Below, piece by piece: positions 1 through 15,012 of a stretch of DNA of 15,012 bases. The number at the start of each line of letters is the position of its first letter. The stretch's first letter is position 1. Source of the DNA: DATDCY01 sp031406795 [NCBI: Candidatus Rokuibacteriota bacterium] (GTDB lineage: Bacteria; JAUVQV01); assembly GCA_031406795.1 (NCBI GenBank), contig JANOHV010000132.1:1-15012 (forward strand), given 5' to 3'. The translations under genes were made by a program, and so were the position numbers. The notes under the pieces are model-generated. The model had not been told where the DNA came from. It saw nothing but the letters and a program-made list of their open reading frames with translations, and ran no database searches.

Positions 1-130
1 CAAGGAGAACGGCAACGGCCTGGGGCTCTTTCTGGCCCGCGAGATCCTGCAGCATCACGGCGGGCGGCTCGAAATCCAGAGCATCCAGGACGAGGGCACG
101 TCGGTCATCCTGACGCTCCCCTATGCCTAG
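1..130 (+). CDS. Sensor histidine kinase, C-terminal end (partial)
   Basis: Only the last 42 codons are present, read from base 2 to the TAG at 128-130; the rest lies before the window. The peptide contains NGNGLGLFLARE, the G2 box of the HATPase_c ATP-binding domain, followed by the usual ending of that domain (HGGRLEIQS, EGTSVILTLPYA). The protein is therefore the catalytic end of a two-component sensor kinase. Its position directly before an NtrC-class response regulator suggests the two are a cognate pair. The kinase stop codon lies inside the terminal CTAG of a small inverted-repeat element that now separates the two genes. The sensor domains and signal cannot be seen. Confidence 0.9.
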   Translation, partial: KENGNGLGLFLAREILQHHGGRLEIQSIQDEGTSVILTLPYA

Positions 131-268: not shown

Positions 269-1645
269 ATGACAAAGAAGACGATCCTCGTCGCCGACGA
301 CGACCGGAATACCTCCTCGGCGATGCGCGAAGGGCTCGAGGACGAGGGCTACACCGTCTTCTGCGCCGGCTCCGGGACTGAGGGACTGGAACTCGCGCGC
401 GCAAAGAAGCCGGACCTCGTGCTGACCGACCTGATGATGCCCGGCATGGACGGCCTGGTCTTCCTGAAGACCCTCAAGAAACTCGACCCGTTCCTCCCGG
501 TCGTCATCATCACCGGGCAGGGATCGGTGGAGACTGCCGTCGAGGCGCTCAAGGAGGGCGCGGCCGATTACCTCGCCAAACCGGTGCGCATGAAGGACCT
601 CGTCAAGCTCGTCGGGCGCACGCTCGAAGTTCAGGCGCTGCGACTGGAGAACCTGACCCTCAAGAACCGGCTCAAGTCGCTGAGCCAGCCGGCCGAAGTC
701 GTCGGGCGCAGCCCGGCGTTCGCCAGGATCCTCGAGGTCGTCCGCCAGGTGGCGCCGACCCGCAGCACCGTGCTGGTCACCGGCGAGAGCGGCACCGGCA
801 AGGAACTGATCACCAACCTGCTGCACCAGCACAGCGCCCGCTGCGACAAGCCGCTGATCAAGGTCAACTGCGCGGCCATCCCCGAGACCCTGATGGAAGC
901 CGAACTCTTCGGCCACGAGAAGGGGGCGTTCACCGGCGCCGTCGCGCAGAAGAAAGGGCGGTTCGAACTCGCGCACGAGGGGACGCTTTTTCTCGACGAA
1001 GTCGGCGACATGAGCCTCACGCTGCAGGCCAAGCTGCTGCGCTGCATCCAGGAGGGCGAATTCGAGCGCGTCGGCGGCACGGAGACGCTGAAAGTCGACG
1101 TGCGGCTCATCGCCGCGACCAGCCAGGACCTGCTCGAGGCGATCACGGCCCGGCGCTTTCGCGACGACCTCTACTATCGACTGAACGTGATCTCGATCCA
1201 CGTGCCCCCGCTGCGGGAGCGCACCGGCGACATCCCGCTGCTGATCGGCCACTTCCTGCGCAAGTACACCGCCGAGACCGGCAGGAAGATCGAGGGGATC
1301 ACGCAGGACTGCCTCGAGGCGATGGCGACCTACCCCTGGCCCGGCAACGTGCGGGAGTTGGAAAACATCATCGAGCAACTGGTGGTCCTGGCGCGCGCAC
1401 CGCTGCTGCGCAAGGAGGATCTTCCGGCGACGATCCGTCAGGAGGGCCGCCGCCGGGACGTCATGGTCCTGCCGATCGGCACGACACTCGAGCAGATCGA
1501 ACAGGCCGCCATCCGTGAAACGCTCTCCATCACCGACGGCAACAAAGAACAGGCCGCCGCGTTGCTCGGCATCCATGTCGCCACCCTCTACCGCAAGCTC
1601 TCCTCCGAGGAGCTCTCGCAAAAAGCGAAAGAAAAACAGGACTAA
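269..1645 (+). CDS. Sigma-54-dependent NtrC-family response regulator
   Basis: This 458-residue bacterial enhancer-binding protein activates sigma-54 promoters after phosphorylation. A receiver domain fills about residues 4-120, with acidic residues D10-D12, phosphoacceptor D54, T82 and K104. The AAA+ domain follows, with Walker A GESGTGKE at 172-179, the sigma-54-contacting GAFTGA loop at 219-224 and Walker B D243-E244. A Fis-type helix-turn-helix ends the protein at about 425-444 (NKEQAAALLGIHVATLYRKL). The ATG at 269 is chosen because it directly precedes the receiver fold; a longer frame to 158 would be translated from the inserted repeat element. No clear ribosome binding site precedes 269. 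Three palindromes and a sigma-54 promoter lie at and after its 3' end, so the downstream operon is its likely target. Domain class is certain; signal and target are inferred. Confidence 0.95.
   Translation: MTKKTILVADDDRNTSSAMREGLEDEGYTVFCAGSGTEGLELARAKKPDLVLTDLMMPGMDGLVFLKTLKKLDPFLPVVIITGQGSVETAVEALKEGAADYLAKPVRMKDLVKLVGRTLEVQALRLENLTLKNRLKSLSQPAEVVGRSPAFARILEVVRQVAPTRSTVLVTGESGTGKELITNLLHQHSARCDKPLIKVNCAAIPETLMEAELFGHEKGAFTGAVAQKKGRFELAHEGTLFLDEVGDMSLTLQAKLLRCIQEGEFERVGGTETLKVDVRLIAATSQDLLEAITARRFRDDLYYRLNVISIHVPPLRERTGDIPLLIGHFLRKYTAETGRKIEGITQDCLEAMATYPWPGNVRELENIIEQLVVLARAPLLRKEDLPATIRQEGRRRDVMVLPIGTTLEQIEQAAIRETLSITDGNKEQAAALLGIHVATLYRKLSSEELSQKAKEKQD
1615..1629. promoter_or_regulatory. 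Putative enhancer site 1 (CTCGC-N5-GCGAA)
   Basis: CTCGC-AAAAA-GCGAA differs by one base from the perfect palindromes at 1656 and 1697, and lies exactly 41 bp before the first of them. It falls inside the last codons of the response regulator gene. The centre is about 221 bp upstream of the predicted transcription start, within the normal range for sigma-54 enhancer sites. As the least perfect of the three it is the least certain. Confidence 0.55.
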
Positions 1646-1655
1646 ACAGAATTGT

Positions 1656-1670
1656 TTCGCATTTTGCGAA
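1656..1670. promoter_or_regulatory. Putative enhancer site 2 (TTCGC-N5-GCGAA)
   Basis: TTCGC-ATTTT-GCGAA is a perfect palindrome with a 5-bp spacer, 10 bp after the response regulator stop codon. Its centre is about 180 bp upstream of the predicted start of the sigma-54 promoter. The motif, spacing and context fit a binding site for the Fis-type HTH of the adjacent regulator. Assignment to that regulator is inferred. Confidence 0.7.
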
Positions 1671-1696
1671 CGACCTTGTGCCAATAGCACATTATT

Positions 1697-1711
1697 TTCG
1701 CGTATTGCGAA
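1697..1711. promoter_or_regulatory. Putative enhancer site 3 (TTCGC-N5-GCGAA)
   Basis: TTCGC-GTATT-GCGAA sits 41 bp after the preceding site, so both copies share nearly the same helix face (about four turns). The symmetry extends to 9-bp arms (TATTTTCGC/GCGAAAATA, 1693-1715), making this the strongest of the three palindromes. Its centre is about 139 bp upstream of the predicted sigma-54 start. An A-rich tract at 1798-1805 lies between it and the promoter and might help bend the DNA, although no good IHF consensus was found. Confidence 0.72.
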
Positions 1712-1734
1712 AATAACTGCTTTCACAAACCCTG

Positions 1735-1816: not shown

Positions 1817-1832
1817 TGGCACTACAATTGCT
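1817..1832 (+). promoter_or_regulatory. Sigma-54 (-24/-12) promoter
   Basis: TGGCAC-TACAA-TTGCT matches the sigma-54 consensus TGGCAC-N5-TTGCW at every fixed position. Taking the conserved C of the -12 element (1831) as -12 puts the transcription start near 1843, only about 6 nt before the ATG at 1849. Three candidate activator palindromes lie 139-221 bp upstream, the usual enhancer arrangement. The promoter should drive the receiver-kamA-GNAT-ATP-grasp operon. Confidence 0.88.
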
Positions 1833-1848: not shown

Positions 1849-2301
1849 ATGAGCGCGCGCAATAATCGCTACCGGATTCTCGTGTCCGACCGGGAGAAGA
1901 ACACCCGGGACGCCGTGGCCGAGATCTTCACCGACGCCGGCTACAAAGTCGACGCCGCGGGCAGCGGTTCCGAGACCATCGAGATGCTCACCCGCCAGAG
2001 TTACGACCTGATCTTCTGCGATCTCGACCTGCCGAAGAAATCGGGTTTCGAACTCGTGCGCATGGCCCGCGCCCTCAACCGCGACGCGCGCATCGTGGTG
2101 ACTTCGGCCCAGGGCGAGCCGGTGAACCGCACCCGCATGAAGAAGGAAGGCGCCTTCGATTTCCTCGACAAGCCGCTGCGGCGCGCGACGCTGCTCGCCG
2201 CCGCGCGCAACGCGCTGCGCAGCACCGGGATGACCAGCACCAGCGACGCCGCCGTCCCTACCGGCACCGACGGCGATCGCGAAAACTCGAGGCCGGCATG
2301 A
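1849..2301 (+). CDS. Stand-alone receiver-domain protein
   Basis: This 150-residue protein is a single CheY-like receiver with no output domain. Phosphoacceptor D58 lies in FCDLDLP, the Thr/Ser position is T85-S86, and K108 lies in FLDKP; a short Ala/Thr-rich tail follows. The acidic pocket after strand 1 reads SDRE instead of the usual DD pair, so metal binding may be altered. The ATG at 1849 is chosen because an upstream TTG at 1816 overlaps the sigma-54 promoter itself. No Shine-Dalgarno sequence is visible and the predicted leader is about 6 nt, so translation may be nearly leaderless. Its stop overlaps an ATG of the next gene (ATGA at 2298). It may act as a phosphate sink or feedback partner for the upstream kinase, which is inference. 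Confidence 0.85.
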   Translation: MSARNNRYRILVSDREKNTRDAVAEIFTDAGYKVDAAGSGSETIEMLTRQSYDLIFCDLDLPKKSGFELVRMARALNRDARIVVTSAQGEPVNRTRMKKEGAFDFLDKPLRRATLLAAARNALRSTGMTSTSDAAVPTGTDGDRENSRPA

Positions 2302-2314
2302 AGGAGACGGGGAG
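2301..2314 (+). promoter_or_regulatory. Ribosome binding site deciding the kamA start
   Basis: The purine-rich stretch AAGGAGACGGGGAG lies 7-15 nt before the ATG at 2322. The alternative in-frame ATG at 2298, overlapping the receiver stop codon, has only a weak match upstream. This favours 2322 by position, although translational coupling from 2298 remains possible and would add eight residues. Confidence 0.55.
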
Positions 2315-2321
2315 AATCCAG

Positions 2322-3542
2322 ATGGAGACCGCGGACGCTTCACTCAGCACCGGCGAACCACCCCAGGAACCGCGCACCTACCCTTGGCAGCGCATACCCC
2401 GCTGGCGCGATGTCGGGCCGGAGCAGTGGCACGACTGGCGCTGGCAGGCAAGGCACCTGATCCGCACCATCGAGGACCTGGACGGGATCGTACCCCTGCG
2501 GGACGCCGAGAAGAAGAAGCTGACGCCGATCGCCGCGGAGTACCATTTTGCGATCACCCCGCACTATGCCGCGCTCATCGACCCGAACGACCCGAACGAC
2601 CCGATCCGCCGCCAGGCCATCCCGGCGCGCGAAGAGGGCTGCTACTACGGCAACGAGACCGAGGACCCGCTGCACGAACTCGAGCACGCGCCCGTCCCGG
2701 GCCTGACACATCGCTACCCGGACCGCGCGCTGCTGGTGACCACGGACTTCTGTTACATGTACTGCCGCCACTGCACGCGCAAGCGCATCTGGAAGAACGG
2801 CGAGACGCCGGTCACCCGCGCGTCGATCCGGGCGATGGTCGACTACATCCGCTGTCACCCCGAGATCCGCGACGCGATCGTCTCGGGCGGCGACCCGCTC
2901 TCCCTGCCGCTGGAACAGCTGGATTTCATCCTCGGCGAACTGCGCTCGATCCCGCACCTCGAGATCATCCGGATCGGCACGCGGGTGCCGGTCGTCCTGC
3001 CGATGAAAATCACCCCCGAACTGGTCTCCGTCCTCGAAAAGCACGGGCCGATCTGGCTCAACACCCAGTTCAACCACCCGCGCGAAGTCACGCCCGAGTC
3101 GGCCGCGGCCGTCGATCGCCTGCTGCGCGCCGGCGTCCCGGTGAACAACCAGACCGTGCTGCTGCGCGGCGTGAACGACGACGCCCCGACGATGCTCGCG
3201 CTCAACCACGCCCTGCTTCGCGCCAAAGTCCGCCCCTACTACCTCTTTCAGTGCGACCCGGTCATCGGCGCCGAGCACTTCCGCACGACCGTGGCGGCCG
3301 GCCTGAAGATTATGAGCGCGATGCGCGTCCACACCTCCGGCCTCGCCCTGCCGACCTATGTCATCGACTTGCCCGGCGGCGGCGGCAAAGTGCCGATCTC
3401 CCAGAACTACGTCATCGGCGAGAACGAGCAGGGCCTCGTGCTGCACAACTTCGAGGGGAAGACCTACACGTACCCGAGCCCCGCGCGCGCCGCCCGCACC
3501 CCGCGGCGCAAGGTCGAGACCCTCGACCCCGTACCGGCGTAG
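2322..3542 (+). CDS. kamA: Lysine 2,3-aminomutase-like KamA radical SAM enzyme
   Basis: This 406-residue protein matches the length of clostridial lysine 2,3-aminomutase (416). That enzyme uses a 4Fe-4S cluster, S-adenosylmethionine and PLP to turn L-lysine into L-beta-lysine in the cytoplasm. The radical SAM motif is C144-YMY-C148-RH-C151. The PLP lysine is K356 in PGGGGK. The two aspartates that bind the substrate side-chain amino group in the clostridial enzyme (D293, D330) align with D312 (QCDPVIG) and D349 (VIDLPGGGGK), with identical spacing of 37 residues. Glutamate 2,3-aminomutases replace both, so lysine or a close analogue is the predicted substrate. The PGGGGK ending and length also separate it from the shorter EpmB. 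It is the second gene of the sigma-54 operon, 13 nt before a GNAT gene. Family is sure, substrate likely. Confidence 0.92.
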   Translation: METADASLSTGEPPQEPRTYPWQRIPRWRDVGPEQWHDWRWQARHLIRTIEDLDGIVPLRDAEKKKLTPIAAEYHFAITPHYAALIDPNDPNDPIRRQAIPAREEGCYYGNETEDPLHELEHAPVPGLTHRYPDRALLVTTDFCYMYCRHCTRKRIWKNGETPVTRASIRAMVDYIRCHPEIRDAIVSGGDPLSLPLEQLDFILGELRSIPHLEIIRIGTRVPVVLPMKITPELVSVLEKHGPIWLNTQFNHPREVTPESAAAVDRLLRAGVPVNNQTVLLRGVNDDAPTMLALNHALLRAKVRPYYLFQCDPVIGAEHFRTTVAAGLKIMSAMRVHTSGLALPTYVIDLPGGGGKVPISQNYVIGENEQGLVLHNFEGKTYTYPSPARAARTPRRKVETLDPVPA

Positions 3543-3555
3543 GGCGGCGGACGCG

Positions 3556-4059
3556 ATGCCCGCTCCCGGGACGGACGTCACCGTCACGCCGACGCGCGAG
3601 CAGGAGCGCCCGGCCATCGAGGGTCTGCTGCGCCGCTGCGGCGTCTTCAGCGAGGAGGAGATCGCCGTCGCGCTCGAAGTCCTCGACGTCTACCTGTACC
3701 GGCTCAACCAGCAGGATTACCAGGTGTTCACGGCCAAGCGCGGCGGCGAGGTCGCCGGCTACGTCTGCTTCGGGCGCAACACGATGACGGACGGGACCTT
3801 CGAACTGTACTGGATCGCCGTCGACCCGCGGCAGCATCGCCACGGCGTCGGCGGCTCGCTGATGACCCTCGCCGAGTACGAGATCGCCCGCCAGGGCGGC
3901 CGCCTGATCAGTGTCGAAACATCGTCGCGGGAGGACTACCACGCGACGCGCAAGTTCTACCACCACCTTCACTACCGGCAGGCAGCCGTCGTCGCCGACT
4001 ACTACGCCGCCGGCGACTCGAAAATCATCCTGACCAAGAAAATCGCGCGCGTCGCATGA
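3556..4059 (+). CDS. GNAT-family N-acetyltransferase
   Basis: This 167-residue protein has a GNAT fold. The acetyl-CoA loop is at residues 94-100 (HRHGVGG) after the typical strand YWIAVDP; the position usually Gln or Arg is His94. The later segment ATRKFYHHLHY matches the conserved last helix and strand of the family. The frame is open further upstream inside kamA, but the ATG at 3556 starts just before the first strand (DVTVTPTREQE) and is chosen for that reason. It lies 13 nt after kamA and its stop overlaps the next start (ATGA). In methanogens, lysine 2,3-aminomutase (AblA) is paired with a beta-lysine acetyltransferase (AblB). This protein is much shorter than AblB, so acetylation of beta-lysine or of a derived peptide is only an inference from context. 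Confidence 0.85.
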   Translation: MPAPGTDVTVTPTREQERPAIEGLLRRCGVFSEEEIAVALEVLDVYLYRLNQQDYQVFTAKRGGEVAGYVCFGRNTMTDGTFELYWIAVDPRQHRHGVGGSLMTLAEYEIARQGGRLISVETSSREDYHATRKFYHHLHYRQAAVVADYYAAGDSKIILTKKIARVA

Positions 4060-5060
4060 GGATCGGGATCGCCTTCAACCTGCGCGACGACGTCCCCTCC
4101 CCCCCCGGGGCCCCCGTCGACCACGCCGAGGAATTCGACTCGCCCACCACCATCGCGGCCCTCGAGGAAGTGCTCGCGTCGGCCGGACACGCCGTCGAGC
4201 GGCTCGGTTTCGGGCGGCCGCTGCTGGAACGCCTGCTCGCCGACCCGCCGGACCTGGTCTTCAACATCGCCGAGGGCCTCAGCGGGCGCAGCCGCGAAGC
4301 GCAGGTCCCGGCGGTCTGCGAGATGCTCGGCGTGCCCTGCACCGGTTCCGACCCGCTGACGCTCGCGCTCACGCTGGACAAGGACCTGGCCAAGCGCGTG
4401 GTCGCATCCCGCGGGCTCGCGACGCCGCGACACCTGCTCGTCGAGCGGCTCGCCGAGCTGCCCGGCGGCGCCGCGCCCGGCGGCCTGGTCTTCCCGCTGA
4501 TCGTCAAACCGGCCTGGGAGGGTTCGAGCAAAGGAGTCCGGCTGGCCTCCCGGGTGACGGACCACGCCGCACTGCGCGAGCAGGTCGGTTTTGTGCTCGA
4601 GGGGTACGGCGGTCCGGCGCTGATCGAGGAGTTCTGCGAGGGCGAGGAGTTCACGGTCGGGGTCCTCGGCAACGAGTCGCCCCGGGTCATCGGGGTAATG
4701 CAGATCCGCCATCGCACCCTGCCGGCCGACGAGTTTCTCTACTCGCTCGAGGTCAAGCGTGACTGGGAAAACCAGGTCGAGTATCTCGTGCCCCCCCCGG
4801 TGTCGGCGCGGCTCCTCGCCGAACTTGAGGGGCTTGCGCTGGGGTGCTATCACGCGCTCGGCTGCCGCGACGTCTCGCGCGTCGACCTGCGCCTCAAAGG
4901 CGGGGTGCCCCATTTCATCGAGGTCAATCCCCTCCCCGGGCTCTCGCCGACTTACGGCGATCTGCCGATTCTCGCCGGGCGCATGGGCTGGACGCATCGG
5001 GAGCTGGTCCTGGCGATCGTGCGGCACGCGGCCGAACGAAGCGGCCTCAAACAAGTCTGA
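4056..5060 (+). CDS. ATP-grasp ligase, D-Ala-D-Ala ligase-like (first of pair)
   Basis: This 334-residue ATP-grasp enzyme should join a carboxylate to an amine through an acyl-phosphate, in the cytoplasm. Visible elements are D108-K109 at the start of the ATP-grasp fold, K151 in VKPAWEGSSKGV (close to the VKP..GSS.GV signature of D-Ala-D-Ala ligase), E191-E192 (EEFCEGEEFTVGVLGN), and metal ligands D277, E289 and N291 (SRVDLR and IEVNPLPGLSP). The start overlaps the GNAT stop (ATGA), indicating coupled translation. A true cell-wall Ddl would be expected near murein genes; here the neighbours are KamA, a GNAT and a second ATP-grasp gene, so a peptide or amide ligase acting on a beta-amino-acid product is more likely. 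Substrates cannot be told from sequence alone. Confidence 0.88.
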   Translation: MRIGIAFNLRDDVPSPPGAPVDHAEEFDSPTTIAALEEVLASAGHAVERLGFGRPLLERLLADPPDLVFNIAEGLSGRSREAQVPAVCEMLGVPCTGSDPLTLALTLDKDLAKRVVASRGLATPRHLLVERLAELPGGAAPGGLVFPLIVKPAWEGSSKGVRLASRVTDHAALREQVGFVLEGYGGPALIEEFCEGEEFTVGVLGNESPRVIGVMQIRHRTLPADEFLYSLEVKRDWENQVEYLVPPPVSARLLAELEGLALGCYHALGCRDVSRVDLRLKGGVPHFIEVNPLPGLSPTYGDLPILAGRMGWTHRELVLAIVRHAAERSGLKQV

Positions 5061-5071
5061 CGCATCACGCA

Positions 5072-5109
5072 ACTCAGCGTCGGCCTTTGGGAAGGGAACC
5101 ACTCAGCGT
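5072..5109. repeat. Short direct repeat between the two ATP-grasp genes
   Basis: ACTCAGCGT occurs at 5072-5080 and again at 5101-5109, inside the 91-bp gap that is the longest inside this operon. No convincing promoter, terminator or strong ribosome binding site was found in the gap. It may be chance. Confidence 0.25.
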
Positions 5110-5151
5110 GCAACATACCGGAAGAGTCGGAAAAGAAAGCGCCGCCGACAA

Positions 5152-6150
5152 ATGAGCCTCGGGCTCATCGTCATCGCACACAACGAGCTCGCCGACCCCC
5201 GGCGCCCCGGTCCGGCCGCCGAGCCGCACCTGATCCACGAAGAGATCCCGATCATCGACGAGGTGCTGCGCGCAGCCGGGTGGGAAACGCTCGCGCTCCC
5301 CGTCGGCGCCGACATTTTCGGAGCTCTCCACACGCTTGGGGCGCGACGCCCCCGCGCCGTGGTCAACCTCTGCGACGACCTGCTCGGCCGCAGCGACCAC
5401 GAGATGCACTTCGCCGGCGCGCTGGAACTGCTGGGGATTCCCTACACCGGGGCCCCACCCCTCGCGCTCGGGCTGTGCCGCGACAAGGTCAAAACCAAAC
5501 TGATCCTGCGCGGGCACGGCGTCCCGACCGCGCCGTTCGTGCTGGTCGATGAGCCGGAGACCCCGCTCGAGCTGCTGCGCTTCCCGGTGATCGTCAAGCC
5601 CGCCGCCGAGGATGGCAGCCTCGGGATCACGGATGCCAGCGTGGCCGCGGACGAGACCGCCGCGCAGCGCGCCATCGCGGCGGGGCTCCAGGCGTACGGC
5701 CCGGTGCTCGTCGAGGAGTACATCGAGGGCCGCGAACTCAATGTGCCGGTGTTCGGCAACGACCCGCCGCGCGTGCTCCCCATTTCCGAAATCGATTTCA
5801 GCGGACTGGCTCCCGGGTTGCCGCGCATCTGCGGCTACGAGGCCAAGTGGGAGCCGGCCGATGCGCGCTATGGCGGCACCGTGGGAATCTGCCCCGCGGA
5901 CCTCACCGGGCAGCTGCGAGACCGGATCGAGCACTGGTCCGCGCTCGCCTTCCGGGTGCTCGGCCTGCGCGACTACGCCCGCATCGACTGGCGCCTCTCG
6001 CCGACACGGGGCCTGATGGCGCTCGAGGCGAACCCGAACCCCGACATCTCGCCGAGTTCGGGCTTCCTGCGGTCCGTCCGCGCCGCGGGCATGGACTACC
6101 CGCAGTTCATCGCACAACTGGTCGAGCAGACGCTCGCCCGCGCCCGATGA
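5152..6150 (+). CDS. ATP-grasp ligase, D-Ala-D-Ala ligase-like (second of pair)
   Basis: This 332-residue protein is a second, clearly different ATP-grasp enzyme. Motifs are D111-K112, K149 in VIVKPAAEDGSLGI, E188-E189 (VEEYIEGREL), and metal ligands D279 (RIDWR), E292 and N294 (EANPNPDISP). The ATP-binding loop reads EDGSLGI where the first paralogue has EGSSKGV, and the N-terminal half differs strongly, so the two probably use different substrates rather than being redundant. The frame is open well upstream, overlapping the first ligase gene, but the ATG at 5152 precedes the first strand (LGLIVIAHNE) and is preferred; its ribosome binding site is weak. The stop overlaps the start of the secreted-protein gene (ATGA). 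The role is likely a second ligation step in the same pathway, which is inference. Confidence 0.87.
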   Translation: MSLGLIVIAHNELADPRRPGPAAEPHLIHEEIPIIDEVLRAAGWETLALPVGADIFGALHTLGARRPRAVVNLCDDLLGRSDHEMHFAGALELLGIPYTGAPPLALGLCRDKVKTKLILRGHGVPTAPFVLVDEPETPLELLRFPVIVKPAAEDGSLGITDASVAADETAAQRAIAAGLQAYGPVLVEEYIEGRELNVPVFGNDPPRVLPISEIDFSGLAPGLPRICGYEAKWEPADARYGGTVGICPADLTGQLRDRIEHWSALAFRVLGLRDYARIDWRLSPTRGLMALEANPNPDISPSSGFLRSVRAAGMDYPQFIAQLVEQTLARAR

Positions 6151-6752
6151 ACAGGATGGCTGCCAGACTCCTCGTTCTCGCCTGCCTTCTCGCGGCGGTC
6201 CCCGCCGGCGCGCAGGGACTCGACCCGCAACTCCAGGAGATCCGGACGCTGATCCGGGAGAAGCGCTACCCCCTGGCTCTGGAGAGCCTGCGCCTCGTCG
6301 GCCGGCAGATCCAGGAGTTGCGCCTGGAGTCGGTCGCCGCCGCCTTCCCCGCCGCTCCGAACGGCTGGACCGCCCTGCCGCCGCTGAGCCTCCTCGAGGA
6401 GGACGAGATCTGGAGCAATCGCATTGCCGCGCAGCGTTCCTACGTCGGCTCCCCGGGTCCGGCGCGCGTCGACCTCACGATCGACGTGCACTCGCCGTAC
6501 GGACCGGCAGTCGCGTTGAGCTTCAACCCGATACTGCTGACGGCCGATCCCCTGTCCCGTCTCGTCCCGATCGGCGCCGAAAACGCGCTGGTGCGTTTCA
6601 ACCCCGACACCGGCGAGGGCGAACTTCGCGTGCTCGTCGGGCGGGAAACTCTCGTCACTGCCCGGGGGCGCGGGGTCCGCTCCCCCGAAATCCTCATCGA
6701 GATCGCCCGCAGGGTGGATTTCGTCCTGCTGCGCCATGCCGCGGGTCTGTAG
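6147..6752 (+). CDS. Small secreted protein of unknown function
   Basis: This is a 201-residue protein. Residues 1-22 look like a Sec signal peptide (a charged MNRMAAR start, a Leu/Ala core, and likely cleavage near VPAGAQG), so the mature protein is probably periplasmic or extracellular. A predicted helical stretch (LQEIRTLIREKRYPLALESL) follows, then a region with NGWTALPPLS and a beta-rich C-terminal half. I do not recognise a named family. The start ATG overlaps the stop of the second ATP-grasp gene (ATGA); a second ATG at 6156 would remove three residues. As the last gene of the operon it is probably co-expressed with the cytoplasmic pathway. It might bind, sense or export the product, but nothing in the sequence shows this. 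Confidence 0.75.
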   Translation: MNRMAARLLVLACLLAAVPAGAQGLDPQLQEIRTLIREKRYPLALESLRLVGRQIQELRLESVAAAFPAAPNGWTALPPLSLLEEDEIWSNRIAAQRSYVGSPGPARVDLTIDVHSPYGPAVALSFNPILLTADPLSRLVPIGAENALVRFNPDTGEGELRVLVGRETLVTARGRGVRSPEILIEIARRVDFVLLRHAAGL

Positions 6753-6772: not shown

Positions 6773-7699
6773 ATGGAAAGTCGCCCCGTGACGATACCGC
6801 TCTCAGCCGGATCCCGCCTCGCGGCGGCTCTCTTGCTGCTCGCCGCGCTCGCGGCGCTCACCGGCTGCGCCGGGCACGCCAACGGGCTTGCGGCCTGGCC
6901 CCCGGCGGATGGCGTGCGGCCCCGGGTTGGCCTCGCCCTCGGCGGCGGCGGCGCCCGCGGCTTCGCCGAGATCGGCGTCATCCGGGCGCTCGTCCGCGAG
7001 AAGGTCCCGATCGACATCGTCGTCGGCACGTCGGTCGGCAGCCTGATCGGCGCTCTGTACGCCGACACCGGCAAGAGCCTCGACCTGGAGTTCTCCGCAC
7101 TGCTGGTGACCAACGAGGATCTCTTCGACTACAAGGCGCTGGCGATCCTCTCCGGCGGCTTCGTCAAGGGTGATCGGCTCGAGGAATTCCTCGGCGAACG
7201 GCTGAAAAACCGGGACATCGAGAAGATGGCGCTGCCTTTCGCCGCAGTGGCGACGGATCTGCGGACAGGAACGACGGTGGTTTTCAGCCGCGGCCCGGTC
7301 GCGCGCGCCGTGCACGCTTCCGCGGCCGTCCCCGGGGTTTTCGTGCCGGTGACGATCGATGGGCAGACGCTGGTCGACGGCGCGGTGACCAACCCGGTGC
7401 CGGCCGATGTCGCCCGCTCGCTCGGCGCGGACATCGTGATCGCGGTGGCCATACCTTCGGCCGTGCCGGCCAAGGCGCCGGTCACGCCGATCGAAGTCGC
7501 CTACCACGCGGTGACCGTCATGGCCGCTGAAATCGGCCGGCTGCGCGCCCGCGAGGCCGATGTGGTGATCACGCCGGACGTCGGCGACACCGCCTATGAC
7601 GATTTCACGGAAAAGAAGCAGCTCATCGAGGCGGGTGAAGCCGCCACCCTCGCCGCGCTTCCGGCGATCAAAGCGGCGATTTCACGAAAGACCCGGTAG
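6773..7699 (+). CDS. Patatin-like phospholipase, lipoprotein (RssA/NTE type)
   Basis: This 308-residue protein of the patatin family would hydrolyse acyl esters with a Ser-Asp dyad. The oxyanion loop GGGGARG is at 57-63, the nucleophile S87 in GTSVG, and the partner D202 in VDGA. The N-terminus has a hydrophobic core and a lipobox L29-T-G-C32, predicting a lipid-anchored envelope protein. The C-terminal pattern VITPDVGDTAYDDF fits bacterial RssA/NTE-like members. The ATG at 6773 is taken as the start; the AGGAGG at 6751-6756 lies 16 nt upstream, too far for normal use, and a consensus -10 lies between them, so the message may be leaderless. A GTG at 6788 is the alternative. It could act in phospholipid turnover; its substrate is unknown. 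Confidence 0.9.
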   Translation: MESRPVTIPLSAGSRLAAALLLLAALAALTGCAGHANGLAAWPPADGVRPRVGLALGGGGARGFAEIGVIRALVREKVPIDIVVGTSVGSLIGALYADTGKSLDLEFSALLVTNEDLFDYKALAILSGGFVKGDRLEEFLGERLKNRDIEKMALPFAAVATDLRTGTTVVFSRGPVARAVHASAAVPGVFVPVTIDGQTLVDGAVTNPVPADVARSLGADIVIAVAIPSAVPAKAPVTPIEVAYHAVTVMAAEIGRLRAREADVVITPDVGDTAYDDFTEKKQLIEAGEAATLAALPAIKAAISRKTR

Positions 7700-9577: not shown

Positions 9578-10702
9578 TCAGGCAATAACGGCGGAGTCCA
9601 CCACGAGCGGCGACAGTCGCGCCGGGGAGATGGTGATCCCGAGGCCCGGCGTCCGCTGTACGACGGCATCTCCGCCCTGTCCGAATTCGAACGGCTCGTC
9701 GGTCACGTCGTGTTCCAGCAGTCGGGTGCCATACGACCCTTCGAGAGCCTCGTATCCGGGCAGCGTCGCCGCGAGCAGTCGGCCGGCTGCCGAGAGCAAC
9801 GACGATTCACCGACCTGGCACCCGACCTGCACCCGCACCCCGCTCTCCCCGGCGACGCGGGCGATCCGCTGGCACGCGGCCAGCCCGCCGAGCTTCGAGA
9901 GACGAAGGTTGAAGAGTCGGTAGCCGCCCTGCTGCACGAGCGCGTGAGCCTCCTCCGCGGTTGTCAGCGACTCGTCCGCCATCAGGGGGATCGCGCTGCT
10001 GCCGGCCAGCGCCGGGATCTCGTGCTCGCGCCCGCGAGCCAGCGGCTGCTCGACCCACGCGACGGCGAAGCGCTCCATCGCCCGCAGGTGCCCGATCGCC
10101 GCTGCCAGGTCCCAGCTCCCGTTGGCATCCACGGCGATCGTCACGGCATCTCCGAGCAGGCTGCGGGCCTCGGCAAGGGCCTCCTGCCAGATCTCCCCCT
10201 CGGCCTTGATCTTGAGATGGCGCACGCCGAGTTCCCGCACGCCGCAAAGGAACGCGGCGGTCTCGGTGCGTTCCAGCAGCGGGAGGACGACCGAGTACCG
10301 GACCGACTCCCGCCGCCGACCGCCGAGCCACCATGCCGCCGACCGGTTGAACGACCTGCCGGCGAGGTCGAACAGGGCGAGTTCCGCGGCGCAGCAGCAG
10401 GTCTGGGTGCCCGGTGTCGGCGCAAGGAGCCCGGCGAGCGCCGGCAGCAGCTCCCCCGGCTCTTCGATGACGGTTCCGATGAGTGAGGGCAGCAGGACCT
10501 GCGCCAGGTGCGCGAACGAGGTTTCGGCGGCTTCCCCGGTCACATAATCTCGGGGCACGCCCTCGCCCCAGCCTTCGTTCCCCTCCTCGTCGCGGAGCCT
10601 GACGACCAGGTTCAGGCTCTCCCGCCTCGACGCGAGAGCGTGACGGACGCTCAGGCGCAGCGGCAGGCGAACGAGGAACGCCTCGGCCCGGCACAACCTC
10701 AT
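9578..10702 (-). CDS. Enolase-superfamily enzyme, muconate-cycloisomerase subgroup
   Basis: This 374-residue protein has the full catalytic set of the muconate lactonizing enzyme/o-succinylbenzoate synthase/dipeptide epimerase subgroup. It shows K164-x-K166 (LKIKAEG), metal ligands D192 (DANG), E218 (VEQP) and D243 (DES), and K270 (KLGG). These positions nearly equal those of Bacillus Ala-Glu epimerase (K162, D191, E219, D244, K268). The C-terminal DxD motif that marks dipeptide epimerases appears absent: the matching strand reads LEGSYGTRLL. Specificity is therefore open (epimerase, cycloisomerase or OSB synthase-like). The ATG at 10702 overlaps the stop of the acyltransferase upstream; a longer open frame to 10999 would overlap that gene and is rejected. 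No menaquinone genes are nearby to support OSB synthase. Confidence 0.85.
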   Translation of the reverse strand: MRLCRAEAFLVRLPLRLSVRHALASRRESLNLVVRLRDEEGNEGWGEGVPRDYVTGEAAETSFAHLAQVLLPSLIGTVIEEPGELLPALAGLLAPTPGTQTCCCAAELALFDLAGRSFNRSAAWWLGGRRRESVRYSVVLPLLERTETAAFLCGVRELGVRHLKIKAEGEIWQEALAEARSLLGDAVTIAVDANGSWDLAAAIGHLRAMERFAVAWVEQPLARGREHEIPALAGSSAIPLMADESLTTAEEAHALVQQGGYRLFNLRLSKLGGLAACQRIARVAGESGVRVQVGCQVGESSLLSAAGRLLAATLPGYEALEGSYGTRLLEHDVTDEPFEFGQGGDAVVQRTPGLGITISPARLSPLVVDSAVIA

Positions 10703-11607
10703 GCCGGCTGCAGCTGGTCGAGAAGGTGCAGTTCTTTCCAGATATACCAGTGATCGGGGGCGCCGTAGATGTAGTGCTCCAGCCGTTTCAGCAGCTGCGC
10801 ATCCGGACCAAGGCCGGTGGGGGCGGCGTGGTGCTCCTGCGGCGATTCGAGGACGAGTTGATAGTTCATCGCGCCGACCCGCTCCATCAGCGCGAGCAGG
10901 ACCGGCGCTCCCGTGCGCCGGTGCAGCAGATCCACCGTGCGGTCCAGGGCGACCCGCCGACCGAAGAAGTTCATCACCTTGTTCGCGGTGGGCTTCCACG
11001 AGGACATCTCGTCGAGTTCGGTGATGAAAATTCTCCCGCCGCGCAGCGCCGCGAGCGCCCGGGTCATCACGGCCCCCTCCCCGGCGTCGAGGGGCTCGAC
11101 ACCGGCCCGCCGGGCGATCCCTTCCATGGTTGTCTTCAGCTGCCGGGTCTGGTACTTGACGACCATGGTGATCGGGTACCCACGAAACGCGAGCGAGCCC
11201 GGCAGGAACTCCACCGCGCCGAAGTGACCGGTGGAGAGGATCACGCCCCGGCCGTCAGCCAGCGCGGCATCGAGCAGGTCCGCGTGAACCAGCGTGACGT
11301 GCCTCAACAGATACGCCCGCACCCGTTCATAGCCCCAGTAGGCGGAGAGCATCTTCTCGAAATAGTGGTCGAAGATGCCGTGGATCACGCGCTTTTCCAG
11401 GTCGGCATCGAACTTGCGGCTCACGTGCGAGGCGCAGTACGTCTCCCGCAGCGCCCGCAGGTAGAGACTGCGCTCCAGCGGTTTCCGGCGAAAATACAGC
11501 CGGCCCAGCAGGCGGACGTAGCTGCGCAGCACGCGCGGCGGATACCAGGCAAAGACCGCCGCATTGACGGGAGCCTGGAAGAACCGGCTCAGGTTTGCTG
11601 CAGGCAT
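10699..11607 (-). CDS. LpxL/HtrB-type lysophospholipid (lipid A-like) acyltransferase
   Basis: This 302-residue protein resembles the LpxL/HtrB family of inner-membrane acyltransferases, which add a secondary acyl chain to lipid A precursors; some members act on ornithine lipids or other acceptors. The catalytic HX4E motif is H128-FGAV-E133 in the context STGHFGAVEF. Length matches the family (about 300). The N-terminal hydrophobic anchor is weak (AAVFAWYPPRVLRSYVRLL). It starts 19 nt inside the HD-GYP gene and its stop overlaps the enolase-family start, so the three form a translationally coupled operon. No other LPS genes are in the window, so the acceptor lipid is unknown. Confidence 0.82.
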   Translation of the reverse strand: MPAANLSRFFQAPVNAAVFAWYPPRVLRSYVRLLGRLYFRRKPLERSLYLRALRETYCASHVSRKFDADLEKRVIHGIFDHYFEKMLSAYWGYERVRAYLLRHVTLVHADLLDAALADGRGVILSTGHFGAVEFLPGSLAFRGYPITMVVKYQTRQLKTTMEGIARRAGVEPLDAGEGAVMTRALAALRGGRIFITELDEMSSWKPTANKVMNFFGRRVALDRTVDLLHRRTGAPVLLALMERVGAMNYQLVLESPQEHHAAPTGLGPDAQLLKRLEHYIYGAPDHWYIWKELHLLDQLQPA

Positions 11608-13424
11608 ATCAGCGGAGAAGTGCTGCGCGGGATCGCGTTGGTCTCACGCAGCTTGAGGAAACTCTCCACAAGATACGGGTCGAACTGTTTGCCCCGGTTC
11701 TCCACCAGCTCCCGGACCACGACCTCTTCCGGGAGGGGAACCCGGTACGGACGGGTCGTGGTCATCGCGTCGTAGCTGTCCGCGATCGCGAGGATCCGCG
11801 CCTCCAGCGGGATCCCGTCGCCGGCGAGCCGGTCCGGGTAGCCCAGGCCGTCATAGCGCTCGTGGTGGCTGCGGATGATCCGGGCGATGTCGCCGAGACC
11901 CTTGAGCGGCCGGATAATCGTCTCGCCGATCACCGGGTGGTGCTTGATCGCGTCGTGTTCGTCCTGGTCCAGCCGACCCGGCTTGTGCAGGATCTTCTCG
12001 GTGATGCCGATCTTGCCGATGTCGTGAATCATGCAGGCCAGTTTGAGGTTCAGCAGTTGTTTCTCCGAAACGCCGACCTCGGCGGCCAGCCGCGCGGAGT
12101 AATCCGCGACGCGCTCGGAGTGCCCGTGCGTGTAGGGGTCCTTCGCCTCGACCGCCTTGGCCAGAGCCTGGATGGCGTCGAGAGAAGCCTGCTCCAGGCT
12201 CTGGTAGAGACGCGAGTTCTCGAGCGCCACCGCGACGTGATTGCCGAAACCGGCCAGGGAGTCGAGGTCCTCCTGGGTGATCGGCGCGTGCCGCCCCGCC
12301 CGATCGGCGGCCAGCACGCCGATCACCTTCCCGCGACTGATCAGCGGGACGATCAGGAAGGAAGTCGGCGAGAACGCCTTGAGCAGCAGATTCTTCTGGT
12401 TGAGGCCGTGATGCGCGACGTCGTCGACCAGGACCGGCTTGCCGGAATTGAAGCTCCGCACCAGGATGTTGTTGGTGCGGTTGAGCGGGACCCGGTAACC
12501 GCCGAACTGCTTCATCATCTCGATCTCGCCGCCCGAGGAGGCGGCCGTGACGAGACTCTGCTCATCCTCGTCGAGCAGCAAGATGATGCTGCGATCGTAG
12601 CCGAGGCTCGACGTCGTGAGCCGCATGATGACGTTCAGCAACTCCCGCCGGTCGAGCAGCGAGACGACGGCCTTCCCGGACTCGTGGATGGTCTCCAGCT
12701 CCTGGATCTTCTTGCGCAGCCGGCCCGTCAAGTCCTGGACTTCCCGGTACTTTTGCGAGAGCAGCTGCTTGTCCTCTTCGAGTTCCCGCACGGTGTCCTG
12801 GAAAAGACCGCGGGAGATGAAGAATTTCCTGAAGACCCCGAACGGGCGGGACACGGGCTGCCAGCGCAGCCGGTACTCGCAGCAGGCGCCGCCTTCGAAC
12901 GCACACTCCGTCTCCATCACCGATGCGGGCTTGACCCCCCAGACCTGGGTGATCGCGCTGTAGATCCCCTGGTTGTACAGGCAGACGTCCTTGGAGTGCT
13001 CCATCCCGGGAAACCAGTCGAGCCGGAGCACGGCTTTGTCCCTGGTGAGCTCGATGAGCTCGACGCGCTTGGTCCGGTTGAACCGGTCGTTGACTTCCTG
13101 GGCCTTGCTCAAGCCTTGTGCCGGGGTCAGGAAGATGCGGAGAAAGATATTCTGGATGTAGCCGAACCGCCGGTGCACGACCGAGTCGTAGCCGATCTTG
13201 AAAGCGAGCTGCTCGTCGCCGAGATGCAGGCGCAGCCTGGCGAAGAGCCGGCTCACGGCGCCGGCGGACACCCAGTTGTTGCGGTCGGAGAGATACGCAA
13301 GGGGCTCTTCAAGAAGATCGAGCTCGGGGCAGAGCCCGGTGACGAATCGCCGGGGGTCGATCGACTTGCGGGAGAGATAGTCCAGGATCGCGCGGGTGTT
13401 GAGACAACTCACCTCGGCCTTCAT
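11589..13424 (-). CDS. Sensor-GAF-HD-GYP cyclic-di-GMP phosphodiesterase
   Basis: This 611-residue soluble signalling protein has several parts. Residues 1-195 form an N-terminal sensor-like region ending in EGGACCEYRLRW (Cys181-Cys182), reminiscent of V4R-type ligand-binding domains but not assignable by eye. A coiled coil spans about 205-250, a GAF domain about 255-400 and an HD-GYP domain about 410-600. The HD-GYP metal residues H467-D468 (MIHDIGK) and the signature HHERYDGLGYP (520-530) are intact, so hydrolysis of c-di-GMP is predicted. The ATG at 13424 has GGAGG with a G-run about 11 nt upstream. A promoter and a leader hairpin precede it. It heads an operon with an acyltransferase and an enolase-family enzyme, linking c-di-GMP turnover with envelope-type functions by context only. 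Confidence 0.92.
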   Translation of the reverse strand: MKAEVSCLNTRAILDYLSRKSIDPRRFVTGLCPELDLLEEPLAYLSDRNNWVSAGAVSRLFARLRLHLGDEQLAFKIGYDSVVHRRFGYIQNIFLRIFLTPAQGLSKAQEVNDRFNRTKRVELIELTRDKAVLRLDWFPGMEHSKDVCLYNQGIYSAITQVWGVKPASVMETECAFEGGACCEYRLRWQPVSRPFGVFRKFFISRGLFQDTVRELEEDKQLLSQKYREVQDLTGRLRKKIQELETIHESGKAVVSLLDRRELLNVIMRLTTSSLGYDRSIILLLDEDEQSLVTAASSGGEIEMMKQFGGYRVPLNRTNNILVRSFNSGKPVLVDDVAHHGLNQKNLLLKAFSPTSFLIVPLISRGKVIGVLAADRAGRHAPITQEDLDSLAGFGNHVAVALENSRLYQSLEQASLDAIQALAKAVEAKDPYTHGHSERVADYSARLAAEVGVSEKQLLNLKLACMIHDIGKIGITEKILHKPGRLDQDEHDAIKHHPVIGETIIRPLKGLGDIARIIRSHHERYDGLGYPDRLAGDGIPLEARILAIADSYDAMTTTRPYRVPLPEEVVVRELVENRGKQFDPYLVESFLKLRETNAIPRSTSPLICLQQT

Positions 13425-13611: not shown

Positions 13612-15012
13612 CTAACGGGAACGCAGTTTCTCGGGGACGAAGTCGAGGTCGCTGGCTTCGCGGACCGCGAGCCCGATCTGGAAATCCATCACATCGCGGG
13701 GGACCGGCAGCTGGTAGCCCACCAGACAGGCCGCGAGGGCCGGGACGGCCGCCAGCCCCTGCGTGCGCGCCAGGCGATACGCCTTCACCGCGATCGCCTC
13801 GGCCGCCCCGGGGGTGAGCATCTCCGGAATCGTCGACTCCAGGCCGGCGTACGCCTCCTCCGGGATGTCCAGGCCGACCCGCCTGCAGAGCGCCCGCAAC
13901 AGCGTGAAACCCTCGCGGGGTTCGAGCGTCGGGAAAAGCGGGATCTTGACGTCGATGCGTCCGGGCCGCTTGATGTCGACTTCGATCAGGTCGGGGCGGC
14001 TCGAAGCGAGGATCCAGAGGATCTTCCCCCGGTTGTCGGTGTCGCTCATCTCCTCGGCGATCATCGAATAGATGCGCCCCGACACGCCGGAGTCGTTGCT
14101 GGAGGACTCGCGCCGCCCGAGCGCCTGGTCGGCTTCGTCCACGAACACGATGCAGCGGCCGAGCGCGTGCAACAGACGGAAGATCCGCTCGAGGTTGCCC
14201 TCGGTGCTCCCCACCCACTTGTCGCGGAAGTTCTTCATCTTGACGACCGGGACGCCCGCCTCGCCGGCGAGGCACTCGACGAGGAATGTCTTGCCCGTCC
14301 CGACCGGCCCGCAGAAGAGATACCCCATCGGCAGCGCCTTGAGATCGTCCTGCTTCCACAGGGCGATGTCCTGCCGCAGCCAGGCCTTGACCTTCTCGCT
14401 CCCGTAGATGTCGTCGAGCGTGCGCCGGCTCTCGACAAAGCCGATCAGCCCGCTGTAATCCTGCTCGACGAGCGACTTCTTGAGCGCCACGAGGCCGGCG
14501 GGTTCGACCGCCCGGCCCGCATGGCGCGCCGATTTGAGCAGCTGCTCCACGGAACTCAGGGCGACCCCCGCCAGCTGGCGCGCGAGCGAGTCCAGCCGGC
14601 CGGCGTACCCGGCGAGGGCGGCGGCGTACGCCGGCTCGAGCACGCGCAGCGTCTCGCTCAGCGCGGCTGCATCGGGAAGCGGCACCTTGATCTTCGCGGC
14701 GTGGGCGTTGTTCGCGAGCAGCGGGTGCAGGTCGTTGAGGTTCTCGGCCACCAGGAAGGTCGCGATCTGGTGACCGCCGATCAGGCTGTCGTTCGCCCAA
14801 TCGCGCAGCAGCAGCACGACCGCACCCTGGTCGTAGCCGCCCGCGTCCCCGGCCGGCGCGATCAGCTCCGCCGCCTCGAGCAGCACCGCGACGCGGGGCG
14901 TCGATTTGCCGAGCCGCCCGAGATTCGCGGTATACCGCAGATAGTGGGTCAGCGACTCGACCGCGCCGCGCGGCGCCCGGGGCAGCTCGCCGAGCCGCTG
15001 CAGGGCGGGCCA
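13612..15012 (-). CDS. Ycf46-like AAA ATPase (partial, N-terminus off window)
   Basis: At least 466 residues are present; the frame is open to the window edge, so the internal GTG at 14886 is not needed as a start. The AAA module has Walker A GPVGTGKT (14310-14287), Walker B FVDEAD, the second-region arginines in RPGRIDVKIPLF, and a C-terminal helical lid. The preceding part (VAVLLEAAELI, GAVVLLLRDWAN, FLVAENLNDLHPLLANNAHAAKIKVPLPD) looks like a degenerate NTPase domain lacking a P-loop. That is the layout I associate with Ycf46-type AAA proteins. The AAA identity is secure; the Ycf46 likeness rests on recalled pattern. Function is likely ATP-driven remodelling of an unknown partner. The 187-nt gap with its own promoter suggests it is not fused to the HD-GYP operon. 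Confidence 0.82.
   Translation of the reverse strand, partial: WPALQRLGELPRAPRGAVESLTHYLRYTANLGRLGKSTPRVAVLLEAAELIAPAGDAGGYDQGAVVLLLRDWANDSLIGGHQIATFLVAENLNDLHPLLANNAHAAKIKVPLPDAAALSETLRVLEPAYAAALAGYAGRLDSLARQLAGVALSSVEQLLKSARHAGRAVEPAGLVALKKSLVEQDYSGLIGFVESRRTLDDIYGSEKVKAWLRQDIALWKQDDLKALPMGYLFCGPVGTGKTFLVECLAGEAGVPVVKMKNFRDKWVGSTEGNLERIFRLLHALGRCIVFVDEADQALGRRESSSNDSGVSGRIYSMIAEEMSDTDNRGKILWILASSRPDLIEVDIKRPGRIDVKIPLFPTLEPREGFTLLRALCRRVGLDIPEEAYAGLESTIPEMLTPGAAEAIAVKAYRLARTQGLAAVPALAACLVGYQLPVPRDVMDFQIGLAVREASDLDFVPEKLRSR

Follow-up and report, generated by a model that had tools for sequence, protein, structure and literature searches.

The 15,012-nucleotide stretch of Candidatus Rokuibacteriota contig JANOHV010000132.1 analysed here (the window) carries a six-gene operon at positions 1849-6752 that probably represents a conserved biosynthetic cassette for a beta-lysine-containing amide, predicted from gene families and modelled folds to be formed by two ligations with optional, perhaps reversible, acetylation. 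The operon encodes a receiver, the lysine 2,3-aminomutase-like protein KamA, a GNAT acetyltransferase, two ATP-grasp ligases (AG1 and AG2) and an exported protein. An earlier sequence-only reading of this DNA had described such an operon, and its six open frames, their families and their tight spacing were all confirmed, with ATGA start/stop overlaps at 2298, 4056 and 6147 and gaps of 13 and 91 bases at the other gene borders. The operon is real and its grouping goes beyond chance, the four enzymes KamA, AG1, AG2 and GNAT being found together in most of the KamA loci compared.

Conservation of the four enzymes

The window KamA was used to scan 84,980 species genomes, and among the best 80 of the 498 relatives obtained, KamA, AG1, AG2 and GNAT occurred together in 65 loci, with AG1 present in 72. 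Eight of the 15 incomplete loci end no more than 2.3 kb past KamA; the remaining seven are L042, L053, L063, L064, L065, L070 and L074, and the genomes of L053 and L063 carry the other cassette genes elsewhere (L096, and L094 with L095, respectively). According to the gene calls, the order KamA-AG1-AG2-GNAT is found in 58 of the 80 loci, the window and L001 having KamA-GNAT-AG1-AG2, and neighbouring genes often share 4, 16 or 29 bases when script-chosen starts are used. The locus titles name Dehalococcoidia, other Chloroflexi, Deltaproteobacteria, Acidobacteria, Nitrospirae and Rokubacteria. The closest relative, L114, shares 86% (KamA), 83% (AG1) and 75% (AG2) identity with the window.

Searches with AG1 gave a similar picture. 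Of the 148 genomes in the class of genome G016, 25 have AG1 at an E value of 1e-130 or lower, and 28 have it at 1e-40. At E 1e-70 the phylum of G035 yielded AG1 in 103 of its 297 genomes (105 AG1 places), and the phyla of G009, G024 and G001 in 35 of 199, 3 of 8 and 2 of 2. In the phylum of G035, 68 of the 105 AG1 places have a KamA no more than 1.5 kb away among the matches listed, and the figure rises to at least 79 when the limit is set at 6 kb. At E 1e-130, KamA was found in 96 of the 103 AG1 genomes versus 21 of the 194 others (Fisher p 1e-47, indicative only, the genomes being related), and at E 1e-80 in 100 of 103 versus 78 of 194. In the low-scoring band of the phylum of G009, the order AG1-AG2-GNAT-KamA, with KamA last, was seen at five of the six places fetched, the sixth contig ending after GNAT. 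Two higher-scoring places were also fetched there, with KamA present in L161 and absent from L160. The conservation expected by the sequence-only reading thus holds across phyla for KamA, AG1, AG2 and GNAT but not for the other two genes: of the loci compared, L114 alone showed the exported protein, and the receiver was limited to L114 and L116 plus a weak case in L097.

The aminomutase and the two ligases

The window KamA aligns with the solved lysine 2,3-aminomutase 2a5h (E 5.2e-130), with CxxxCxxC, Asp293, Asp330 and Lys337 kept. These three residues and the three cluster cysteines were retained in 112 of 112 KamA segments, not all of which are distinct (some loci overlap; L116 duplicates L001, and L081-L084 are the same as, or similar to, loci already counted). 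We take Asp293 and Asp330 to hold the lysine side chain and Lys337 to be the pyridoxal phosphate lysine, and the retention of these lysine-site residues points to a lysine 2,3-aminomutase-like enzyme, as previously proposed.

AG1 and AG2 are two non-identical D-Ala-D-Ala ligase-like ATP-grasp proteins, both matching Dala_Dala_lig_C and sharing 34% identity over 283 residues. The predicted model of AG1 (predicted local distance difference test, pLDDT, 94.5) has DdlB 8evy as its best structural match (Z 34.0, root-mean-square deviation 2.3, 297 aligned), and that of AG2 (pLDDT 91.1) has DdlB 8evz (Z 33.0, deviation 2.6, 296 aligned). Residues were counted with L116 and the AG2 pieces of L133 left out, L090 and L091 set apart and long frames cut at 400 residues. 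The Ddl ATP and metal residues Lys215, Arg255, Asp257 and Asn272 are conserved in 72 of 72 AG1 and 65 of 65 AG2 sequences, and Glu270 in 72 of 72 and 64 of 65. Tyr216, which belongs with Glu15 and Ser150 to a set of residues at the D-Ala site, is found in none of the 72 AG1 and none of the 65 AG2 sequences, compared with seven of seven true Ddl from genomes of the set. The AG1 residue at this position is Arg (31), Glu (19), Trp (18) or another (4), with the three main residues tracking three clades of the AG1 tree, and the AG2 residue is Trp in 65 of 65. The Glu15 column, which is poorly aligned, has Glu in five of seven true Ddl, 31 of 72 AG1 and 4 of 65 AG2.

One alternative holds that AG1 and AG2 are ordinary cell-wall D-Ala-D-Ala ligases that stand beside KamA by happenstance, and their fold and ATP residues are indeed those of Ddl. 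We give it almost no credence, as Tyr216 is present in 0 of 137 sequences and the scores of AG1 and AG2 against the Ddl model TIGR01205 (113.7 and 119.9) lie far under its cut-off of 245.65, every Ddl model listed likewise being missed. True Ddl passed its cut-off in 18 of 40 locus genomes, and the identical 18 (of 21 non-Chloroflexota genomes) have MurC over its cut-off, both sitting away from the cassette. In all 19 Chloroflexota locus genomes, and in G003, G021 and G023, for none of which completeness is stated, neither MurC nor Ddl passed; in G003 a contig begins with a partial Ddl-like match, and the MurC match of G021 is split. For those Dehalococcoidia that lack MurC over the cut-off, a Ddl fold would seem to serve no purpose in the cell wall. 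Judged by sequence, then, AG1 and AG2 are not cell-wall Ddl, and the possibility that they might prove to be so, which the sequence-only reading had itself raised, is contradicted. Like Ddl, VanA and the D-Ala-D-Ser and D-Lac ligases, they have the fold, the ATP and metal residues and a likely acyl-phosphate chemistry; unlike Ddl, they have Tyr216 replaced, stand apart from the cell-wall genes detected and are present in genomes without MurC over the cut-off.

Other ATP-grasp variants were also encountered. An extra RimK-like gene lies between arginine decarboxylase and AG1 in L111 (6634-7560). Distant AG relatives in L090 (5830-8136) and L091 (4943-7297) appear by eye to be fused to peptidase-like and methyltransferase-like parts, respectively. 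The AG1 relatives of L121 and L125 have Leu at the Tyr216 position, and the searched partner genes are absent from the fetched stretch.

Polyamine genes beside AG1

The lowest-scoring AG1 band in the phylum of G035 comprises 21 of the 105 places, all of which were fetched. The pyruvoyl arginine decarboxylase PvlArgDC stands at AG1 in 14 of the 21, and among these 14 loci, some of them short, 11 have an agmatinase and seven a deoxyhypusine-synthase-like gene (two of the seven weakly); one representative per neighbour family was scanned, and curated cut-offs were passed. Of the remaining seven places, L112, L127 and L129 have KamA, the contig of L130 ends at AG1, L117 is short, and L121 and L125 have neither. 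In the AG1 tree, 15 polyamine rows (among them L130, so labelled though its contig ends beside AG1) and three KamA rows form one supported clade in which the KamA rows are nested; long Ddl rows make some joins of this tree unsure, and L094, L096, L117 and L135 are marked as KamA-type although KamA was not seen beside them.

A strong KamA is found elsewhere in the genome in 15 of 15 polyamine-type genomes, and at the ten such unlinked KamA places fetched, AG1, AG2 and GNAT are not beside it. This retention suggests that beta-lysine formation stays with the ligases when the linkage breaks, and polyamine synthesis appears to join the ligases where that happens, within one AG1 clade. There the polyamine genes (pyruvoyl arginine decarboxylase, agmatinase, deoxyhypusine-synthase-like) precede AG1-AG2, and we know of no polyamine pathway containing this ligase pair. 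At four unlinked KamA places of polyamine-type genomes (L144, L145, L148 and L152), KamA lies beside pyrF-like open reading frames, with pyrE-like ones too in three, as read by eye.

A gene encoding a GNAT-like/deacetylase fusion lies between AG2 and GNAT in L100, L117 and L134 and heads the cassette in L127; nine of the 80 KamA loci have it downstream. The five best of its 128 solved matches are acetylpolyamine amidohydrolases; its N-terminal part resembles GNAT weakly (E 0.0012, below cut-off). PvlArgDC was present in 68 of the 103 AG1 genomes versus 72 of the 194 others, and in 53 of 88 once the 15 polyamine-type genomes were set aside. A mutual exclusion of KamA and arginine decarboxylase, considered at one stage, proved wrong, both being present in many genomes.

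KamA and the deoxyhypusine-synthase-like genes recall the modification of elongation factor P (EF-P) and eIF5A (PMC2821294), and beta-lysine or a polyamine might be placed on a protein such as EF-P, parallel to EpmA/EpmB or hypusine. We regard this as highly improbable. The EpmA/EpmB system also makes and attaches beta-lysine, but the window KamA scores 235.2 against the EpmB model TIGR03821, under its cut-off of 369.3, and EF-P was not recognised by eye among the recurrent neighbours of the 80 loci, no EF-P model search having been made. The ligase of the EpmA/EpmB route belongs to another superfamily than AG1 and AG2, and Ddl-fold ligases normally act on small-molecule substrates.

Proposed pathway, regulation and genomic setting

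From the gene set, its conservation, the promoter, the residues, the predicted folds and the co-occurrence, all of them computed, we infer a series of reactions, their order, the ligation partner and the product. KamA would convert L-lysine to beta-lysine. AG1, which keeps the Ddl fold and ATP residues and has lost a D-Ala specificity residue, would activate a carboxylate and form an amide bond with beta-lysine as one partner, and AG2 would add a further unit. An amino acid may serve as the other partner; for one AG1 clade at least, a polyamine or agmatine supplied by the genes next to AG1 is the alternative candidate, and the product is perhaps a polyamine conjugate. Finally, GNAT could acetylate an amine as an optional step, which in some lineages the acetylpolyamine-amidohydrolase-like enzyme of the cassette may reverse. 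In the window lineage, the operon would be switched on via the histidine kinase, NtrC and sigma-54.

Several observations weigh against this pathway. The 80 KamA loci were taken by score and not at random. The window KamA reaches 468.1 bits against the AblA model TIGR03820, under the cut-off of 525.4; among its relatives L114 (481.7) and L087 (475.3) are likewise below, and the cassette KamA of L097 (532.6) is above. AG2 departs from Ddl at further active-site columns, all 65 sequences having Ala or Gly in place of Ser150 and Asp or Cys in place of Gly276, which makes its chemistry less sure. At 26 of the 105 AG1 places there is no KamA within 6 kb among the matches listed (to about 1e-122), and by eye none of the unused listed KamA places lies on the contigs of those 26, leaving G242 aside; seven of the 103 AG1 genomes have no KamA at E 1e-130. 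Three complete-looking genomes of 1.4-1.5 Mb, which we take to be Dehalococcoides-like, have only KamA-AG1 within the 16 kb fetched. In L114, AG1 directly follows KamA, with AG2 and the exported protein kept and GNAT gone. PvlArgDC was found in 8 of the 34 genomes searched for it (seven of the eight non-Chloroflexota and one of 26 Chloroflexota), and its position beside AG1 in a single clade, together with its scarcity in Chloroflexota, means that a polyamine partner made in this way cannot be general.

Since GNAT is missing in relatives and the KamA-AG1 pair stands alone in the three small genomes, the core of the cassette would appear to be KamA and AG1 first, followed by AG2 and then by acetylation. 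No GNAT relative was found at E 1e-8 in G186 (the closest genome), G406 or the three Dehalococcoides-like genomes, and unlinked relatives are present in G304, G332, G315 and G286; acetylation as a fixed step is therefore abandoned. The same variability bears on an AblA/AblB-type pathway, in which, according to PMC3543383 and PMC12776343, a lysine 2,3-aminomutase is followed by an acetyltransferase. The cassette follows this known logic in having both enzymes, but adds two ATP-grasp ligases, has a variable acetyltransferase that is missing from several lineages retaining the ligases, and has a sigma-54 promoter in the window lineage. AblB passed its cut-off in none of the 40 locus genomes (weak matches in two), which leaves the osmolyte analogy drawn by the sequence-only reading weak, and the window GNAT has no match to the AblB model TIGR03827 at E 0.001. 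An Rfam scan of eight sources including the window returned three tRNAs, nothing else, and no riboswitch. An AblA/AblB-type route thus seems unlikely.

The negamycin cluster, according to PMC12154649, also brings together beta-lysine formation and ATP-grasp genes, the latter being found in related clusters too, and so gives the chemistry proposed here a precedent; MFS (major facilitator superfamily) or MarC membrane proteins stand beside some loci, as might suit a secreted, bioactive, negamycin-like beta-lysine amide. The cassette differs from such clusters in its twin Ddl-like ligases and its wider spread. In our judgement, presence in about a third of the genomes of one sampled phylum (103 of 297), with a minimal pair in genomes of 1.4-1.5 Mb, is unlike a patchy antibiotic cluster and points to a function within the cell more than to one as a weapon, and transporters are not constant among loci. 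We therefore consider a secreted product of this kind rather improbable, and favour the conserved beta-lysyl amide cassette.

The proposed sigma-54 control and kinase-regulator pair are both supported by the region upstream of the operon, where the 3' end of a histidine kinase gene, an NtrC activator gene and a promoter of full consensus are predicted (Table 1). The same promoter, 32 bases before the receiver start, occurs in L114 and L116, the two of two relatives keeping NtrC-receiver-KamA. In twenty block-shuffled windows, no site matching all 11 positions arose on the scanned strand, and sites with at least 10 of 11 averaged 0.55 over both strands; the window has a second site with 10 of 11 at 9816. 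NtrC at the same place is 84% identical in L114 and 71% in L116/L001, and the receiver 83% in L114 and 53% in L116. Another lineage has the order AG1, kinase, NtrC, receiver-like gene, KamA, AG2, with the whole stretch read in L097, where the receiver match is slightly under the Pfam cut-off and the promoter scan gave no sigma-54 match. L098 and L099 share this order for the genes searched and have a 10/11 promoter 3' of NtrC, and the AG1-KamA gap of 3.8-4.2 kb typical of the layout recurs at nine AG1 places, L097-L099 included. Regulators of these types thus accompany the enzymes in two lineages.

Other regulators were seen at further loci. A gene for a helix-turn-helix and cupin regulator (one representative scanned) lies just 5' of KamA in 11 loci, mostly titled Deltaproteobacteria (L002, L003, L004, L005, L007, L008, L009, L010, L013, L018 and L019), and a divergent winged-helix gene (one representative scanned) lies 5' in 21 Chloroflexota loci.

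Table 1 Predicted features of the window in and upstream of the operon
Feature	Positions	Strand	Basis
Histidine kinase gene, 3' end	2..130	+	HATPase_c 3e-8 over 42 aa; frame from base 2, runs off the window
NtrC-type sigma-54 activator with receiver domain	269..1645	+	Sigma54_activat 1.1e-71, Response_reg, HTH_8
Palindrome TTTCGCATTTTGCGAA, possible activator site	1655..1670	.	Sequence reading; counterpart upstream in L114, imperfect in L116
Palindrome TTTTCGCGTATTGCGAAAA, possible second activator site	1695..1713	.	Counterpart in L114, imperfect in L116
Sigma-54 promoter TGGCAC-N5-TTGCT	1817..1832	+	11/11 scored positions
Stand-alone receiver (RR)	1849..2301	+	Response_reg 6.7e-23
KamA, lysine 2,3-aminomutase-like radical S-adenosylmethionine/pyridoxal phosphate enzyme	2298..3542	+	Radical_SAM and LAM_C; top curated model AblA TIGR03820 2.2e-140
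GNAT acetyltransferase	3556..4059	+	Acetyltransf_1 2e-11; nearest solved structure 2r7h 2.4e-26
AG1, Ddl-fold ATP-grasp ligase	4056..5060	+	Dala_Dala_lig_C 2.1e-26
AG2, second Ddl-fold ATP-grasp ligase	5152..6150	+	Dala_Dala_lig_C 3.1e-31
Exported protein, family unassigned	6147..6752	+	Signal peptide by eye; 52% identity to L114 counterpart at the same place

The exported protein has no Pfam or NCBIfam match at E 0.001. Downstream of the operon, after a 20-base gap and on the same strand, lies a patatin-like, RssA-like protein (6773-7699, below cut-off), followed on the minus strand by genes for an enolase-superfamily protein (9578-10999), a lipid A acyltransferase-like protein (10699-11607), a GAF-HD domain protein (11589-13424) and an AAA ATPase (13612-15012). 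Elsewhere, a MarC-family membrane protein, a possible exporter of which one representative was scanned, follows the cassette in 12 loci (L014, L016, L022, L023, L031, L040, L043, L049, L067, L069, L077 and L080), and in the Dehalococcoides-like genome of L087 a Fur-family regulator and a metal uptake operon of the ZnuA type come after the KamA-AG1 pair. A scan of viral contigs with AG1 gave no relatives. A role in defence was dropped, PADLOC having matched the receiver once, weakly and in part, and no other protein of the operon.

Taken as a whole, the earlier interpretation is partly supported. Its statement that no described pathway has this gene set stands, no description of the cassette having been found in the open-licence papers searched. 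A more specific possibility, which we put forward tentatively, is that many bacteria use a repurposed D-Ala-D-Ala ligase pair to make reversibly acetylated beta-lysyl-polyamine or beta-lysyl-peptide metabolites with a polyamine-like or stress role. If the proposed pathway is correct, an undescribed small-molecule pathway would be present in roughly one third of one sampled phylum and also in members of Chloroflexota, Acidobacteriota, Nitrospirota and Rokubacteria, and ligases that look by fold like cell-wall Ddl would be carrying the wrong function.

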